Assembly: GCA_031273605.1 (NCBI GenBank)
Contig: JAISRN010000071.1
Span: 1-32,442 of the forward strand
Length of the DNA stretch: 32,442 nt
Source of the DNA: Spirochaetales bacterium
Lineage (GTDB): Bacteria; Spirochaetota; Spirochaetia; UBA9216
Direction of reading: 5' to 3'
Under the pieces are notes generated by a model. That model ran no database searches. It was not told the DNA's origin and worked only from the letters and a program-made list of their open reading frames with translations. The position numbers were made by a program, and so were the translations under genes. Below, piece by piece: positions 1-32,442 of this stretch. Numbering within the stretch: the first letter of the stretch is position 1; every line of letters starts with the position of its first letter.

Positions 1-2249
1 AAATGGGGCTGCATACGGCGGGCTTCGCTCCGCTCCATATCTTCCCGGATTTCCTGTACTTTTTTTATGCCAAGACCCTGCCCCGCAAGGGAGCGTTCTT
101 CCAAAAGGCGCTCAAGTTCTTTTGTGTCCAGTGCGCTGTTTATAATCTGGTCAAGCCGTTTTTTAACCTCGATCTGGTTACCATAGCGGATTGCCTGGAT
201 AAGAAGATCCCGCAGAGGTTTATCATCAAAGCTTACTTTTCCCAATACATCAAAAACCCTGCCGCCAAGAGCTTTGCGTTCACGATCCAGTTTCTCAAAA
301 AGCCGGGTAAATACCTCGCCCTCTCTGGTTCCATTGGCAACCAAGTTCCAAAGATGGCAAACATCCCGCTGACCGATACGGTGGATACGGCCAAAACGCT
401 GCTCAAGGCGATTGGGGTTCCATGGTAGATCATAGTTGATCATGAGGTGCGCTTTTTGCAGATTTATGCCTTCACCTGCTGCATCGGTGGCTACAAGCAC
501 AGAAACCGTGGCGTCATTTTTAAAACTCTCCTCAATAAGCTTACGCTCTTCCCTTTTCATGCCGCCTTGTATGGTTACTACCGCATCGGGATTACCAAGC
601 ATGGTGCGAATTTTACCAGCAAGATAATAAAGGGTATCACGGTGTTCAGTAAAGATAATAATTTTCTGGCGAACACCGCGCGGCATGGATGCCGCTGTAT
701 CTACTGCATCCGACAAGATGTTGGATTTTGAGTACATAAGAGCTTCATCTTGCAGGGTCGTTGAAAGCTGTTCCCATTTTTTATCAACGCCGCTATTACG
801 CAGTTTAAAAGACAACAGTTCAAGATCCTTTAGGGTATGTATTTCTATCTCAAGTTCCGCTATGGTTTTTGAAGCGGTCGCTTCGTCAAGAAATTCTTCT
901 TCTATATCGTTTTTATCTTCTTCGGGTGCGTCATCGTAATCAGCCCAATCATCATCGGAAAAAGATCTGATATGCGATTGCACATCCGGATCATATTCAT
1001 GTTGTAAATCCCGCCTTTCCTGAAATTCAACAAGCCGTTTTTCAAGGCGCTGCCGACGGCGGGTAAGGGACTGGTAGATAGCCTCCGGGGAAGATGCAAG
1101 ACGGCGCTGTAAAACGGTAAGGGCGAAACCTACAGCATGGAAACGTTTTGGGTCAAGAATTTTTTCAGCCTTGGCAAAGCCGGTCCGTACATAATCTGTT
1201 ACTTTCTCGTAAATATCCATCTCCGCGGGGCTTAGGCTGTATTTGAGGGTATAGGCTATGCGCTCGGGAAACAGGGGCTTCCCTTCAAAGGTAACCAGTT
1301 CCTCTTTTACAAGACGGCGCATAATATCTGATACATTGATTGTATCCTTTTTATTTCGCTGCTTTCCTTCAAACCGCTCTTTATCAAGCAGGCGGAGAAA
1401 CAACTGAAAATCGTCGTCCTTGCCATTATGAGGCGTAGCGGTGAGCAACAGGAAATGACGGGTCAGACCTGAGAGCAGCTCCCCCAAATGATAACGCTTG
1501 GTATAATGCGGTTCATCACCGAAGTTGGAAGCCGACATTTTGTGAGCTTCATCACAAATGATTAAATCCCAATCCAAAGCCTGGCCTGCGGCCTTGAGTT
1601 TTTCCTGTATATCCTCGTTTCGGGACAGCTTGTCCAGACGGGCAATACAGTAGGGAATATCCATAAAGGCATTTCCCCGGACAGAGGATTCAAGGCGGTC
1701 ATTGGTGAGAAGTTCAAACTCAAGCTGGAAGCGGGAATAGAGTTCATCCTGCCATTGCTCTACAAGATTGCCGGGACATACAATGAGACAGCGGTTGAGG
1801 TCGCCACGAACTTTGAGTTCCTTGATGAGAAGGCCGGTCATGATGGTTTTTCCGGCTCCCGGATCATCCGCCAGGAGAAAGCGAAGGGGCTGCCGGGGAA
1901 GCATTTCGCTATAAACGGCGGTTATCTGATGCGGCAGGGGCTGGATCATGGATGTGTGGACTGCCAGATGGGGGTCAAAAAGATGGGCTAACCGGATGCG
2001 GTAAGCCTCGGAAACCAGGCGATATTGGGCGGCATTGGCATCGAATTTCCAAGGCAAATCCCCCGCTTCTATGGAAAGGGTGTCCAAAACATCCGCATAA
2101 AGGAATCGTTGGCCCAGACTGCCATCGTTTTTACGGTATACGAGGTCAACAGCATCATCCCCCAAGGGTTGAGCAGAGACCACTTGGACGGCTTCATTGG
2201 AGAGTATTCCGCGGATACGGGCTGCTGGTCTTATGTCCTGAAGTGTCAT
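1..2249 (-). CDS. SNF2/DEAD-type superfamily 2 helicase (resembles helicases of DISARM/DUF1156-type defence loci); C-terminus runs off the left edge
   Basis: Manual reverse-strand translation from ATG at 2249 (MTLQDIRPAARIRGILSNEAVQVVSAQPLGDD...) is open to the window edge; frame checked over most of its length. Motifs: DDPGAGKTIMTGLLIKEL (Walker A), IICDEAHK (DEAH), LLLTATPHNGK (motif III), VLVATDAAGEGINLQ...WNPNRLEQRFGRIHRIGQ (motifs V/VI). Absent from the ORF track because no stop lies inside the window. Confidence 0.9.
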   Translation of the reverse strand, partial: MTLQDIRPAARIRGILSNEAVQVVSAQPLGDDAVDLVYRKNDGSLGQRFLYADVLDTLSIEAGDLPWKFDANAAQYRLVSEAYRIRLAHLFDPHLAVHTSMIQPLPHQITAVYSEMLPRQPLRFLLADDPGAGKTIMTGLLIKELKVRGDLNRCLIVCPGNLVEQWQDELYSRFQLEFELLTNDRLESSVRGNAFMDIPYCIARLDKLSRNEDIQEKLKAAGQALDWDLIICDEAHKMSASNFGDEPHYTKRYHLGELLSGLTRHFLLLTATPHNGKDDDFQLFLRLLDKERFEGKQRNKKDTINVSDIMRRLVKEELVTFEGKPLFPERIAYTLKYSLSPAEMDIYEKVTDYVRTGFAKAEKILDPKRFHAVGFALTVLQRRLASSPEAIYQSLTRRRQRLEKRLVEFQERRDLQHEYDPDVQSHIRSFSDDDWADYDDAPEEDKNDIEEEFLDEATASKTIAELEIEIHTLKDLELLSFKLRNSGVDKKWEQLSTTLQDEALMYSKSNILSDAVDTAASMPRGVRQKIIIFTEHRDTLYYLAGKIRTMLGNPDAVVTIQGGMKREERKLIEESFKNDATVSVLVATDAAGEGINLQKAHLMINYDLPWNPNRLEQRFGRIHRIGQRDVCHLWNLVANGTREGEVFTRLFEKLDRERKALGGRVFDVLGKVSFDDKPLRDLLIQAIRYGNQIEVKKRLDQIINSALDTKELERLLEERSLAGQGLGIKKVQEIREDMERSEARRMQPH

Positions 2250-2339
2250 CTCAATTCCTTGTATAGGCAATATTATCATACATCAGGCCCTAAGAAAAGG
2301 AAGCTGTAGGGCTCTTTCGAAGTAACTTCACCCCAAAAT

Positions 2340-2368
2340 TTGACACCATAAAATTCTTGTTCTATGAT
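2340..2368 (+). promoter_or_regulatory. Putative sigma70-type promoter for the FAD lipoprotein gene
   Basis: TTGACA (2340-2345), 17-nt spacer, TATGAT (2363-2368), ~90 nt upstream of ATG 2458. Confidence 0.65.
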
Positions 2369-2457
2369 AATTAGAAAGGGGCGACAAGAAAGGAGCCATT
2401 TCAAAATGTCCTATTTTTGAAGGATAAGCTCTAAACCGGTTCATAACGAGGAGACCC

Positions 2458-3909
2458 ATGAAAAATAGCTTAAAAATACTAGGATGGGCATTGGTTTTGG
2501 CCTGCTCCGCCTGCGCTTCCGGGGGGAACCGGACCTTTAACCAGGAGGCGGATCTGGTGATCATCGGGGCCGGCCCGGCGGGTTTGGCGGCCGCGGTGGA
2601 AGCGGCGGATAGGGGGGTCAAGAGGATTCTCATTCTGGAAAAGATGCCCTACCTAGGGGGAACGGCCTTTGTTTCCCACGGCCTATTGGCGGGCTACGAA
2701 ACCCAAATCACCAAGGCTCTGGGCATCCATGACACGGAGGAAGCCCTCTACGCCCTTCTTAATGAAAATGCGGAGTACCGCCTTGATCCTATGATGGCCC
2801 GGATTACCGTCCGGCAGTCGGGGCCCACCATTGATTGGCTTATCGACCGGATCAAGGTTCCCTTTCTTCCCGCCACCCGCCGGGGTTACGGTTCCCCCAC
2901 CATGATGCACACCATCGAAGGGGGCGGCCAGGGCCTAAGGGAGCCCTTTATCCGGGTTTTGGAAGAAGGGGGAATCCCGGTACTCTTTGAAACCCGGGCG
3001 ACAAAACTAATCCGCAGCGCCGAAGATCGGATTATCGGTGTCGAGGCGGTTTCCGGCGGGAAGACCCTCGCCATCGGCGCCAAAGCCGTGGTAGTGGCCA
3101 CCGGCGGCTATTCGGCCAACAACCGGCTGGCGGAGGTTCTGGACCCCTTTTACCGGGATGTGCTGCAAACCGGCCTTTCCTCCTCCACCGGGGACGGCCT
3201 CATCATGGCCTCCGCCGCCGGGGCGGGGGTGAGCAGCACCCGGCTTTTAAGCCTGGATTTCAAGGATTACGAAATTATCACCGCCCATAACGGCTCCTCC
3301 GATGCGGCTAACTGCAATCCCATTATGAGCGCCCCGGGAGTCATTTATCTGAATCCCCAGGGCCTAAGATTTATGAACGAAAAAAACCTAGGCTTTATGT
3401 TTCAGCGCCTGGGAGAACCTTTTTTCCGGGAGATGCACCGGACCAACTCCCCCTTCCTCTGGGCTGTGGTGGATCAGGAAACCTTTACCGCCGTTAGTGC
3501 CAAGCGGGGCCTGAACTTGGAGTACCTTAACGCCGCCGGCCCTGGGGAACTGGCGTCCCTGATGGGAATAACCCCCCAGGTTCTGGAAGACACCCTGGCG
3601 GTCTATAATCTGGCCGCCGCCGCCGGCCGGGATGAGGAATTTAACCGCCCCGCCGCCACCCTAAAACCCCTTTCCGGCCGGTTGTATGCGGTCAAGTTTG
3701 CCCCGGTTTTGGGGATCACCTACGGCGGCCTGTTAAAAAACGAAAAGGCCCAGGTTCTCCGGCTGGACGAAACCCCCATAGAGGGCTTGTACTGCGCCGG
3801 AGAGGTTTCCGCGTCCACCGCGTGGATGGGCTGGACCTTGAGCAGTTGCTTTAGCTGGGGCCGGATTGCCGGCGCTTCGGCGGCGGAGTTCATTCGCGGC
3901 GGGGCCTGA
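2458..3909 (+). CDS. FAD-dependent oxidoreductase (fumarate reductase/FAD_binding_2-like) with lipoprotein-type signal peptide
   Basis: N-terminus MKNSLKILGWALVLACSACASGGN (lipobox-like); ADLVIIGAGPAGLAAAVEAADRGVKRILILEK dinucleotide-binding motif; C-terminal YGGLLKNEKAQVLRLDETPIEGLYCAGEVS typical of this family. Confidence 0.88.
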   Translation: MKNSLKILGWALVLACSACASGGNRTFNQEADLVIIGAGPAGLAAAVEAADRGVKRILILEKMPYLGGTAFVSHGLLAGYETQITKALGIHDTEEALYALLNENAEYRLDPMMARITVRQSGPTIDWLIDRIKVPFLPATRRGYGSPTMMHTIEGGGQGLREPFIRVLEEGGIPVLFETRATKLIRSAEDRIIGVEAVSGGKTLAIGAKAVVVATGGYSANNRLAEVLDPFYRDVLQTGLSSSTGDGLIMASAAGAGVSSTRLLSLDFKDYEIITAHNGSSDAANCNPIMSAPGVIYLNPQGLRFMNEKNLGFMFQRLGEPFFREMHRTNSPFLWAVVDQETFTAVSAKRGLNLEYLNAAGPGELASLMGITPQVLEDTLAVYNLAAAAGRDEEFNRPAATLKPLSGRLYAVKFAPVLGITYGGLLKNEKAQVLRLDETPIEGLYCAGEVSASTAWMGWTLSSCFSWGRIAGASAAEFIRGGA

Positions 3910-9968: not shown

Positions 9969-10885
9969 GAGGGGAGGATGGGGAAGTTTTGGGCATGGAT
10001 GTTCTGGACTGGAAGGACTTCTGCGCCGCCGGGGCGCCGGTTTTCGGAGACCGGGAGATTGCCATGACTCTGGGAGTCTTTGACGGTTTTCACCTGGGGC
10101 ATCAGCGTCTCATTCAGAAGGTGGTCTCCCAACCCCGGACCTACCCGGTACTGTTTACCTTCCGCCGAAGCCCGGCGGAGCTGCTGCCCCACAGGGCCTT
10201 TTTGGGCAGCCTGGCCACCACCGGGCAGAAGTTAGAAGAATGTGCCGGTTTTGGCATGAAAGCCGCCGTGCTCATTGACTTTTCTATGGATTTCAGTAAA
10301 CTAACAGCTAAAGAATTTCTTGACATCATCCTTGACCGGATGAGGCTGTCAAAACTCATCCTGGGGGAGAACCACCGCCTGGGATACCGGGGGGAAGCGG
10401 GGGCCCGGGAGGTTCAGGTTCTTCTAAACCGCCGGGGTATAGAGGTTGATATCATCCCGACTTTGTACTGCCGGGGTCTGCGGATTTCCAGCACCCGGAT
10501 CAGGCAAACCATCCTGGAGGGGGATCTGGCCCTGGCGGAAGAGATGCTTGGTCGGCCCTATGCGCTGGACCTGGGTTTTCTAAAGGAAGGCGGTTTTTTT
10601 CAGGGGGCGGAGCGGAAAAGCGGCGGCGAAGGGTTTATTTATGCGGTTCCGGTCCGGGGATTTCCCCAAATCCTGCCGCCGCCGGGGGAGTATCCGGTAC
10701 TCTACGAGTCCTCCGGGGAGTTTTTCCCCGCAAGGCTTGTACTGGATAATGGGTATATGCAATGGGAGCAGGTCCGGGAAATTCCCGGGACAAAAATATT
10801 CTTTTGTCATTCTAAGAACACAGGAGACGGCGATGTCGTTAACAAAAGAAAAAAAGCAGAGCATTATAAAGGACTTCGGAGCTAA
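9965..10885 (+). CDS. ribF: RibF-like FAD synthetase; C-terminal riboflavin kinase domain degenerate or absent
   Basis: [19 protein letters not shown] nucleotidyltransferase motif and [28 protein letters not shown]; between truB and rpsO; ATGA overlap with truB. Confidence 0.85.
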
Positions 10886-11102
10886 TGAAAAAGACTCCGG
10901 TTCCACCGAGGTACAGATTGCCCTATTAAGCGCCCGCATAAGCGATCTGACCGAGCATTTCCGGATTCACAAAAAGGACCACAACTCCCGCCGGGGATTG
11001 TTAAAACTGGTGGGGCAGAGGCGCAGGCTTCTTAAGTATCTCCAGAGGGAAGATCTGGAAAAATACCGGGAAATCATCAAACGCCTCAATTTACGAAAAT
11101 AA
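10833..11102 (+). CDS. rpsO: 30S ribosomal protein S15
   Basis: [43 protein letters not shown]...; SD AGGAG upstream. The ORF-track start (10641) is too early. Confidence 0.97.
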
Positions 11103-11180
11103 GGCCCTTTCCTCCTTTGGGATTCAAGGGATTTGGGTCTTATAAAATGCCTAAGAATGATTTTTGTTTAAGGAATAACT

Positions 11181-13271
11181 ATGGTAAATAAAGTAAGCGT
11201 CCGGATTGGCGACAGCGATCTTGTTTTGGAAACCGGCCGCATAGCCAAACAGGCTAACGGAGCGGTATTTGCCACCTATGGGGGCAGCGCCGTACTTTCT
11301 ACGGTTTGCTGCGGAAAAAAGGTGGATGATCTGGATTATGTGCCCCTCCAGGTGGAATACAACGAAAAATTCTACGCCGCGGGAAAGATTCCCGGCGGAT
11401 TTTTAAAGCGGGAGGGGCGCCCCAAGGATAAAGAGATTCTGGTAAGCCGGCTGATAGACCGGCCCATGCGCCCCCTCTTTTATAAAGAGTTTTCCCGGGA
11501 AATTCAGGTGATTCCCACGGTTATCTCCGCCGACATGATTAACCCTCCGGATATTATCGCCATGGTTGCCGCCTCCGCTTCGGTGCTCATCTCCGATATT
11601 CCCTTTAACGGCCCTGTGGGAGCCGCCCGGGTCTGCCTGGTGGGGGACGAGTTCATCGTTAATCCCACCTTTGCCCAGATAAGCGAAAGCAGCATGGACA
11701 TTGTGGTGGCCGGAACCGCCCAGGGCATCACCATGGTCGAGGGGGGGGGCAAGGAGGTTTCGGAGGAGGTTCTTCTCTCGGCCATTGCCAAAGCGGACGA
11801 AGTGATTAAGGGGCTTTGCGCTCTCCAGGAGGAGTTGGCCGCCAAGGTGGGGGTCTCTAAACTTCCGGTAGAAAAATCCCAGGCCGGGCTTCCCGGACAG
11901 GAGGAGATTTCCCATTTTGCCCGGCCTCTCTTAGAAGAGGCCTGTTTTGTTAAGGGCAAAATGAAACGCCACGAGGCCATTGCCCAGGTAAAAGCCCAGA
12001 CCATCGAAAAATTTGCCCAGGATTTTTCCGAAGACCAGTACAAACTCCTGGGGGCCCTCCTGGAAAATCTGGAGTACCGCATCGTCCGCTCAAGTATCCT
12101 GGACCGGGGGGTCCGAACCGACGGCAGGGGAACGGAGGATATCCGCCCCATTTCCTGCGAGGTGGGGGTTCTTCCCCGGACCCACGGTTCCGCCCTCTTT
12201 ACCCGGGGAGAGACCCAATCCCTGGTCATCACTACCCTGGGGACGGTTTTTGACGAACAGATGATGGACGACATTGACGGCGAAAAACGTTACGCCAATT
12301 TTATGCTCCATTATAATTTTCCTCCCTTTTCGGTGGGGGAAACGGGCCGCCTTGCCACGGGCCGGCGGGAGATTGGGCATGGCCACCTGGCCCAGCGGGC
12401 CATTGCGGCGGTTCTGCCTAACAAGAACAGCTTTCCCTATACCATCCGGGTTGTTTCCGAGATCTGCGAATCCAACGGCTCCTCTTCCATGGCCTCGGTC
12501 TGCGGGGGAACCCTATCCCTGCTTAACGCGGGGGTCCCCATGGGCAAACCCGTAGCCGGAATTGCCATGGGGCTTATCTCCGGCGAGGAAGGCAAGGTGG
12601 CGGTGTTAAGCGACATCCTGGGAGAAGAGGACCACCTGGGGGACATGGATTTTAAGGTGGCGGGAACCCAAGACGGGATTACCGCTTTTCAGATGGACAT
12701 TAAAATCGCCAATGTTACCCCCCAGATCATGTCCCAGGCCCTGGCCCAGGCCAAGCGGGGCCGGCTGCACATCCTCAACATTATGAATCAGACGATTTCC
12801 GAACCCCAAAAGAACCTTTCCGAATTTGCTCCTAAGATTGTTACCATCAAGGTTGACCCGGAAAAAATCGGCGGCATCATCGGGCCCGGGGGAAAAACCA
12901 TAAAGAGCATTACCGAGGCCACCGGCGCCAACATCAATATCGAAAACGACGGGTCCGTTACCATTTATTCCCGGGAACAGGCCGGGGCCAACAAGGCGGT
13001 GGAGATCATCAAGAGCATAGTCGAAGAACCGGAAGTGGGAAACACCTACACCGGCAAGGTTCGGCGCATCATGGATTTTGGCGCCTTTGTGGAATTTTTG
13101 CCCGGCAAGGAAGGGCTGGTTCACATTTCCAAACTCTCCCGGCAAAGGGTTAACGCCGTTACCGATGTTCTTAAAATTGATCAGGAAATTCCGGTCAAGA
13201 TTATCGAAATTGACCGCATGGGACGGATTAATTTAAGCTATGTCGACGCCCTTCCCAACGGCGGAAAATAA
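11181..13271 (+). CDS. pnp: Polyribonucleotide nucleotidyltransferase
   Basis: 696 aa with RNase PH repeats, KH (IGGIIGPGGKTIKSITEATGANINIEND) and S1 (GKVRRIMDFGAFVEFLPGKEGLVHISKL). Confidence 0.98.
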   Translation: MVNKVSVRIGDSDLVLETGRIAKQANGAVFATYGGSAVLSTVCCGKKVDDLDYVPLQVEYNEKFYAAGKIPGGFLKREGRPKDKEILVSRLIDRPMRPLFYKEFSREIQVIPTVISADMINPPDIIAMVAASASVLISDIPFNGPVGAARVCLVGDEFIVNPTFAQISESSMDIVVAGTAQGITMVEGGGKEVSEEVLLSAIAKADEVIKGLCALQEELAAKVGVSKLPVEKSQAGLPGQEEISHFARPLLEEACFVKGKMKRHEAIAQVKAQTIEKFAQDFSEDQYKLLGALLENLEYRIVRSSILDRGVRTDGRGTEDIRPISCEVGVLPRTHGSALFTRGETQSLVITTLGTVFDEQMMDDIDGEKRYANFMLHYNFPPFSVGETGRLATGRREIGHGHLAQRAIAAVLPNKNSFPYTIRVVSEICESNGSSSMASVCGGTLSLLNAGVPMGKPVAGIAMGLISGEEGKVAVLSDILGEEDHLGDMDFKVAGTQDGITAFQMDIKIANVTPQIMSQALAQAKRGRLHILNIMNQTISEPQKNLSEFAPKIVTIKVDPEKIGGIIGPGGKTIKSITEATGANINIENDGSVTIYSREQAGANKAVEIIKSIVEEPEVGNTYTGKVRRIMDFGAFVEFLPGKEGLVHISKLSRQRVNAVTDVLKIDQEIPVKIIEIDRMGRINLSYVDALPNGGK

Positions 13272-30033: not shown

Positions 30034-32442
30034 ATGAAAAATTTGCGGAACACCCTTGCCCTTGGCGCTGATAAATCAGTCCCGTTTACCCCCCCCCCCC
30101 CCCCCGATAGGAATACTAAGATATAAACCCCTCCGGGCCTTCGCTTGTTTTGTTCCCTCCTTCAGCCTGATAAGCCTTATCGTCCTCGTGTTGGCGCTGG
30201 CCTCCTGCCCCAGCCCGACCGGCGGCGGGGAGGAAACTCCACATATTGTTTCTGTCGGAGATATACAAATAGTAACTAATGGATTTCCGGAGGGTTATAC
30301 CGGTATACCGCAAGTAACGATAAATGGTACCAGTTTGAATGTGAGTATGTTGAACGGAGTAATTATCTTAAGATTTCCCGCTTCTTTGCAGAAACACACT
30401 TCCGAAGGCATTATCGAGATCAAAATTTCTAAGACTTTGATGCAGAGCATGGTTAGCAATGGAGCAATTCCGGGTCTAAAATTTGAGCAAGGCATAGACA
30501 GTAATGATGAGATTAGCGAACAGGATGCTGAAACAATTAGACAGCGTATTGTGGATGCTATAAAGTCTATTACTATCGCTTATACTGCGACTGCAGAATA
30601 TTCTAATGAAACGACTGGTCCTATCAGCGATAGCGGAACCATTGGGGTATTAGGAACCTTTGCGCTGCCTAGTATTGATTATAGCGCAATGACAGTAAAA
30701 AATTCTGATTATACGACAAATGAGCAAAATCCTACCCCTACGCAGGATGTTACGTTGTGGGGACTCACCGCCACGTTCACCAAAACGAGCGAAACTACAG
30801 TGACTTTGGATATACCTTGGACTGGCTCTGTTAGTGGCGATTTGTCCGATATAGCTACCTACGCCACCAGCTATGTAACTGGGAAAAGTATTACCGTCAC
30901 ATTTACCAAAACTGGCGGAAACGCAGGCAACGACAGGGTCAGTTTCGGCAAGATAGCCGAATTGAAATCGGCTCTTGCCGGTGCGGCTTCTGTCAGTATG
31001 CAATCGTCCACCGAGTCCGGCAAGGAGGTCGCTCCGCTGTTCAACGGGGATGATATGTATGGCGATCCGTATGAAAATGCTGCTTATTTATATAATAAAG
31101 ATAGGGTGTTTTATTTATATAACAATGGTGATGAAATTTTTGAAGGGTATGAAGTACGATATGGGGCTAATAAGAATAACGCACATATTTATGTCAAAAC
31201 TGGCCATAGTATAATTGTAGACAAGCTAAGATTTTTTAAGACTTCAGACAGTTCTAAATTGTCTACTAAAGGTTTTGGTCTTGAGCTTCAGAGCGGTGCA
31301 ACTATTTCTTTTGTCTCAAATCCTAGTATTTCTCTAGATTTAATTGGAGATAGTACTGTACAAGCTATTACACCAGCGGATCTTGCTAGCGCATTGTGTT
31401 ATATAGGGTTAGATTATACTAGTTATATCTCAGGTTCTTCTAGTTCTTCATCTACTCCAACAGCTCCATTATTTACTATAAATGCTGGTAAATTATTGAA
31501 TGATTATTCTAGCAGTTTAATAGATGTAAATATTGCTTCATCTTTAAACGCTCTGAAGTTCCTCGAGAAACATGCGGATGCTAGCAAGTTAGGTAATCTT
31601 GCTCTTTCTGTTACTACTCCACATCTCATTCTCCAAAAATCCAACCCCTACACCGGAAATACCGCTCCTGCCGCCAATCAGGTGAGCGGCAACCTCGCCG
31701 TCTGGCTCGGTAACAAGGGCGTCGCACTTAGGGAGGTCTATCTGACCAATCCAAACTTGTATACTTCCGCCACTTCAGGGGGCACACTAAGGAATGTTGT
31801 ATTAGAGGGAAATAATTGGAAAAATATTACTGTTGCTGAGGCTCATGGCGTTATTGTATCGGTAAATACTCCGGTTGCAGCTCTCAATAATCCCAACAAC
31901 TCCAACCTCTGGTACGTCGTCCAGGGCGGGAATCCTTCTACGCAGGTGCAAATCAATGCCAAGGTTCTTGAACTTGGTTATAGTCATCCCTATGCAAACT
32001 TGGCACCGGTCGGAGGATCTATCACGCTGGATGGCCTTATAACTCCGACTAGTGATAGAACTGGATTGAGTAGTAATTTTTCGGCCACTAAGCATTATTA
32101 CACCGGTTCCCCTAACAGCGCTCGTCCCACGATAACATGGCAGCAGTATGCCGCGACAGTAGCGGGGGGTGGTACGCCCACCTTCGCCTTCGCTCCTATG
32201 GATAATTCAATCCGTCTGGCCGAAGGGAAAACCGATGCAAAGGATAACGATTACTTGCGCATGCTTGCGAACATTCCGACGCACGAGCTGGCCGATGCCG
32301 GCCGTACCGCATTGGAAAGCTTCCTGGGTTCCGTCTATGCGTCGTTTGAAAACGGCACGATGACTTCGGCCGACCGCCGTCTGGCCAACCAAATTATGGC
32401 CAGCATCTCCAAAGCGAATGGATTCAATCCGAGAAATGTACG
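30034..32442 (+). CDS. Very large putative surface lipoprotein; N-terminus split by a poly(C) tract (candidate phase-variable, off-frame as given); C-terminus runs off the right edge
   Basis: SD AAAGGA at 30021 and ATG 30034 start frame A (MKNLRNTLALGADKSVPFTPPPP...), which stops at TAA 30124. Frame B (codons starting at 30161 and +3n) is open from after TGA 30035 to the window end and encodes ...SFSLISLIVLVLALASCPSPTGGGEE... (signal peptide/lipobox) followed by a Ser/Thr-rich body. Not in the ORF track (no stop in window, no ATG near its start). Confidence 0.8.
30089..30105 (+). repeat. 17-nt poly(C) homopolymer
   Basis: Counted directly: C at 30089-30105. Other long G/C runs seen in the window reach only ~9 nt. 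Confidence 0.9.

Follow-up and report, generated by a model that had tools for sequence, protein, structure and literature searches.

What is the helicase gene that runs off the left edge of a spirochaete contig, and with which genes does it work? The stretch of DNA analyzed here (the window, 32,442 nucleotides) comprises bases 1-32442 of contig C27 in the genome of a Spirochaetales bacterium, a 2.29-Mb assembly in 234 contigs that is an estimated 86% complete. A preliminary description took the gene for an intact SNF2 helicase of the defense type, likened it to DrmD of DISARM and to the helicases of DUF1156/DUF499 loci, and placed it at the edge of a horizontally acquired anti-phage island.

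A helicase gene cut by the contig end

The minus-strand helicase gene is real: a single open frame of 759 aa occupies window 3-2279. The start with homolog support is the ATG at 2249 (MTLQDI..., profile position 2 of HmaA), 2279 being the alternative frame start, and from this ATG the frame runs uninterrupted for 749 codons down to base 3. The gene is not intact, however: the first base of the window is also the first base of C27, which leaves the frame with no stop codon, and its match to the HmaA profile ends at position 733 of 1176, so that ~440 C-terminal residues are absent, including the NOV_C/PD-(D/E)XK-type nuclease with which homolog L031 ends. The open end is also the likely reason for the absence of the gene from the ORF list, in which it appears only when open ends are allowed.

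Among PADLOC profiles, which the preliminary description proposed to run, HmaA is the top family by 680 bits, with 1074.6 bits over residues 11-759 (profile 2-733), followed by DrmD (392.9 bits) and BrxH (316.9 bits); the HmaA profile thus covers all 749 available residues. An alignment with seven relatives retains the Walker A, DEAH, TATPH, and QRFGRxHRIGQ motifs (Table 1), including all those quoted earlier. Full-length HmaA homologs are 66-71% identical to the window protein over the best segment, and a homolog that is itself cut by its own contig end, L033, reaches 76%; RFIEVKGR of the C-terminal nuclease region aligns in L031, L032, L034, and L035. On these sequence grounds we identify the left-edge gene as the 5′ two-thirds of the gene for the helicase in Hma, a known and widespread bacterial anti-phage system.

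Two other assignments would place the protein outside Hma. As DrmD, it would work with DrmA/B/C and the DISARM methylase. DrmD is a related SNF2-type helicase, second in PADLOC and best in NCBIfam, where no Hma model is among the matches, but its PADLOC score is far below that of HmaA, its NCBIfam score (355.1 bits) falls short of the cut-off of 610, and the partners in the scanned related loci are HmaB and HmaC rather than DrmA/B/C. The PADLOC and NCBIfam scores refute DISARM as the best label, and we regard membership in that system as exceedingly improbable. Alternatively, the gene could encode a RapA-like SNF2 helicase that has a housekeeping function in spirochaetes and no part in defense, a reading that draws on RapA being the nearest solved structure. 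The NCBIfam RapA model scores only 169 bits against a cut-off of 576, six genomes of the same family contain no close homolog (best E 2e-10), and the related genes belong to Hma operons, which together make a housekeeping role scarcely credible. The family has no conserved single-copy ortholog at this position, which refutes the reading. RapA, like BrxHI/BrxHII of BREX, shares the helicase superfamily and motor architecture with the window protein but scores lower, and no BREX partners were seen in the related loci scanned. Pfam returns general helicase domains only.

Table 1. Positions of the hmaA gene, its motifs, and the other features discussed
Feature	Contig or locus	Position	Strand	Remarks
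hmaA, SNF2/SF2 helicase of the Hma (Type-1 DUF499-centered BR) system, 5′ two-thirds	window	3..2249	(-)	open frame; PADLOC HmaA match; 59-78% identity to relatives, motifs aligned
Walker A region LADDPGAGKTIMT, residues 136-148 of P0001	window	1836..1874	(-)	columns L136-T145 invariant in the alignment
DEAH box DEAHK, residues 243-247	window	1539..1553	(-)	columns D243, E244, A245, H246, and K247 invariant
Helicase motif VI region QRFGRIHRIGQR, residues 627-638	window	366..401	(-)	nearly every column invariant
Intergenic region between hmaA and the divergent flavoprotein gene	window	2250..2457	.	near-consensus sigma-70-like site; consensus match only
Sigma-70-like site TTGACA-17-TATGAT	window	2340-2368	plus	faces the flavoprotein gene; consensus match only
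Secreted FAD-dependent oxidoreductase gene	window	2458-3909		high GC
Open frame with lipoprotein-like start	window	30056-32440		GC 45%, GC3 43%
HmaC C-terminus	C146 (G000)	59-529		profile 782-940 of 941; E 3.9e-23
Apparent frameshift in the HmaC piece	C146 (L115)	1-120		FAYADG in one frame, GRYEGL in the next
comF of this genome	C162 (L130)	10700-11404		followed by pyruvate kinase
NsnABC-like set	L031	7697-10859		NsnC match weak
Schlafen/AlbA_2 + HATPase_c_4 + winged-helix protein	L034	8111-9580		other Hma loci contain similar genes

Partner genes in related loci and, probably, across an assembly gap

Hma comprises three genes, encoding a helicase (HmaA), a DUF1156 methylase (HmaB), and a DUF499 ATPase (HmaC). 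It was named as a candidate defense system found in 26 phyla (Payne et al. 2021, PMC8565338) and has been re-described as the Type-1 DUF499-centered BREX-Related (BR) systems (PMC12839542), in a paper that sets out the Type-1 BR architecture and relates, at second hand (its ref. 112), an anti-phage test of the helicase in Halomonas. Among the 80 best-scoring HmaA homolog loci from 84,980 species genomes, a sample that describes the close family and not all SNF2 helicases, hmaB lies downstream of hmaA on the same strand in every one of the 54 loci whose sequence extends 6 kb or more beyond hmaA, and hmaC is also present within the fetched sequence in 43 of these. In the relatives, HmaB contains DUF1156, HmaC has a Swt1-like HEPN domain at its N-terminus in addition to DUF499, and NOV_C forms the end of complete HmaA. 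These are features of Type-1 BR systems; the nuclease end and the HEPN domain are known here from the relatives, since they fall outside the assembled sequence of this genome. The DUF1156/DUF499 lead of the preliminary description was therefore right, as was its view of the gene as a defense-type helicase.

Two of these loci, from the closest relatives whose flank is long enough, illustrate the arrangement. The gene order is hmaA-NsnA-NsnB-NsnC-hmaB-hmaC in L031 and hmaA-hmaB-Schlafen/AlbA-hmaC in L034, and neither drmA nor drmB is found among the neighbors scanned there. In L031 an NsnABC-like set thus stands between hmaA and hmaB, one defense system nested in another; in L034 a Schlafen-type protein gene stands between hmaB and hmaC.

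In the mechanism proposed for the family, HmaB methylates self DNA, the DUF499 ATPase assembles, and the helicase-nuclease attacks DNA (PMC12839542). As extended to this locus from family knowledge, HmaB, a DUF1156 adenine methylase, would mark the host's own DNA; HmaC, a DUF499 AAA+ ATPase, would assemble a scanning complex; and HmaA, in which an ATP-driven SNF2 motor lies between a Tudor-like domain at the N-terminus and a nuclease of the PD-(D/E)XK type at the C-terminus, would act on and cut unmarked invading DNA. Accounts of the HmaB chemistry disagree, naming an m5C methyltransferase (PMC8565338), a DNA-adenine methylase (PADLOC), or an N6-MTase (PMC12839542).

The search for DUF1156 and DUF499 partners in the genome itself succeeded in part. 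Its sole HmaC match covers the final fifth of the protein, is 43% identical to HmaC of L034, and reads away from the left end of contig C146. HmaB gave no match in this 86%-complete assembly, where its expected position falls in an assembly gap, and further HmaA pieces were limited to weak general-helicase matches. Since hmaA leaves C27 at its left end and hmaC enters at the left end of C146, the orientations fit one operon across the gap, and the missing stretch (the rest of hmaA, hmaB, and most of hmaC) would measure ~7 kb as estimated from L034 lengths. We infer this join from gene content and orientation; hmaA very probably leads, within the gap, into hmaB and hmaC, with the end of the operon on C146. 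An hmaB gene would accordingly lie in the gap, the nuclease end would be intact, and the system could be active in restriction. We thus consider it highly likely that this gene represents the 5′ two-thirds of an hmaA from an Hma system (PADLOC PDLC00659) whose operon very probably spans the gap to C146, although the assembly contains no more of this operon than that part of hmaA and the final fifth of hmaC. A defense operon of this kind drops from view inside an assembly gap, and its recognition needs both contig ends read together.

Could hmaA instead be a decayed or solitary remnant of a lost or broken operon, no longer defensive? HmaB was not found in the genome, and the reading frame of the HmaC piece appears to shift ~55 bases from the contig end, where assembly error and real damage are indistinguishable. 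Yet the hmaA frame is open over all its codons with every motif kept, and the missing parts fall exactly at both contig ends of an incomplete genome, so we judge decay unlikely.

A rearranged flank

To the right of hmaA lies the divergent secreted flavoprotein gene, then rimP, nusA, and infB. The sigma-70-like site in the intergenic region faces the flavoprotein gene; on the minus strand no such site was found for hmaA within this region. The flavoprotein gene is not at this place in the relatives; it has 24 matches in its own genome (paralogous pieces), perhaps a lineage expansion. At the other end of the window, a low-GC open frame runs off the right edge.

In five genomes of the same family and one of the same class (G007), mutS and comF stand upstream of rimP. 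The relatives keep the order mutS-comF-rimP-nusA with the gld operon elsewhere; in the genome studied here, mutS-comF lies on C162, and the comF-rimP adjacency is broken (window 4192). No clean empty-site comparison is therefore available, and the flank has been rearranged in this lineage rather than receiving a simple insertion. On C146, the genes that follow hmaC are, judging by their sequences, an ABC transporter operon of the Gld type and then genes for a small membrane protein and a UvrD-type helicase. The join between C27 and C146 likewise needs a rearrangement, because the nusA and gld regions are not neighbors in the relatives (in G001 a single contig carries both, ~97 kb apart). Because housekeeping genes lie beyond hmaC, an inserted operon is supported and a larger defense island is not; the proposed island edge thus survives as an Hma operon whose inferred far side, on C146, consists of the end of hmaC and then ordinary genes.

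The patchy family, its close homologs in other phyla, and the conserved comF-rimP order broken beside hmaA could also be read as signs of a chimeric contig, in which a helicase gene from another organism of the sample was mis-joined to a spirochaete operon. Against this, the divergent high-GC flavoprotein gene stands between hmaA and rimP, and the HmaC piece belongs to another contig, C146, where the gld operon has its closest match in same-family genome G002 (52% identity), so that two chimeras would be needed. We find this very unlikely.

Distribution and descent

Base composition says little about origin. The preliminary description called hmaA lower in GC than the core genes, and its GC content is indeed low (48.4%, whereas sequence windows of equal size average 53.4%, sd 3.9), but 17 of 111 such windows are equally low or lower, and low GC is weak evidence of transfer; GC3 is 47.7%, with only one of 16 other genes measured lower. 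With GC depressed only slightly, the argument for transfer relies on the patchy distribution, the tree, and the disrupted gene order.

HmaB and HmaC, like a close HmaA homolog, are absent from all six same-family genomes, and no more than a handful of the 97 relatives searched give strong matches to HmaB and HmaC. In a tree of 87 sequences, the window protein and L031-L035 form a six-member clade with support of 100, in which the other members come from three Spirochaetota bins, one Synergistota bin, and one Bacillota bin; misbinned contigs are possible in this clade, and the Synergistaceae contig is only 4.7 kb. This patchy distribution and a clade that spans three phyla support the suggestion of horizontal acquisition. 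With this locus the known range of Hma gains a spirochaete lineage, and the findings point to movement of the family across phyla.

Three of the five bins are confirmed as termite-gut bins (Th196, Nt197, and Ncb351), from Termes hospes and Neocapritermes taracua (PMC7024585) and Neotermes cubanus (PMC11707648), respectively. We tentatively raise the possibility, to which we give somewhat less than even weight, that a termite-gut Hma lineage has been exchanged across Spirochaetota, Synergistota, and Bacillota, settling each time at a different chromosomal site and with different nested accessory defense genes (NsnABC; Schlafen/AlbA-type).

Phage records contain no full-length HmaA homolog. Some plasmids carry full-length homologs, at 53-59% identity among the matches listed, and five IMG/VR contigs filed as viral (L135-L139) carry HmaA homologs that cover nearly the whole query at 53-58% identity.
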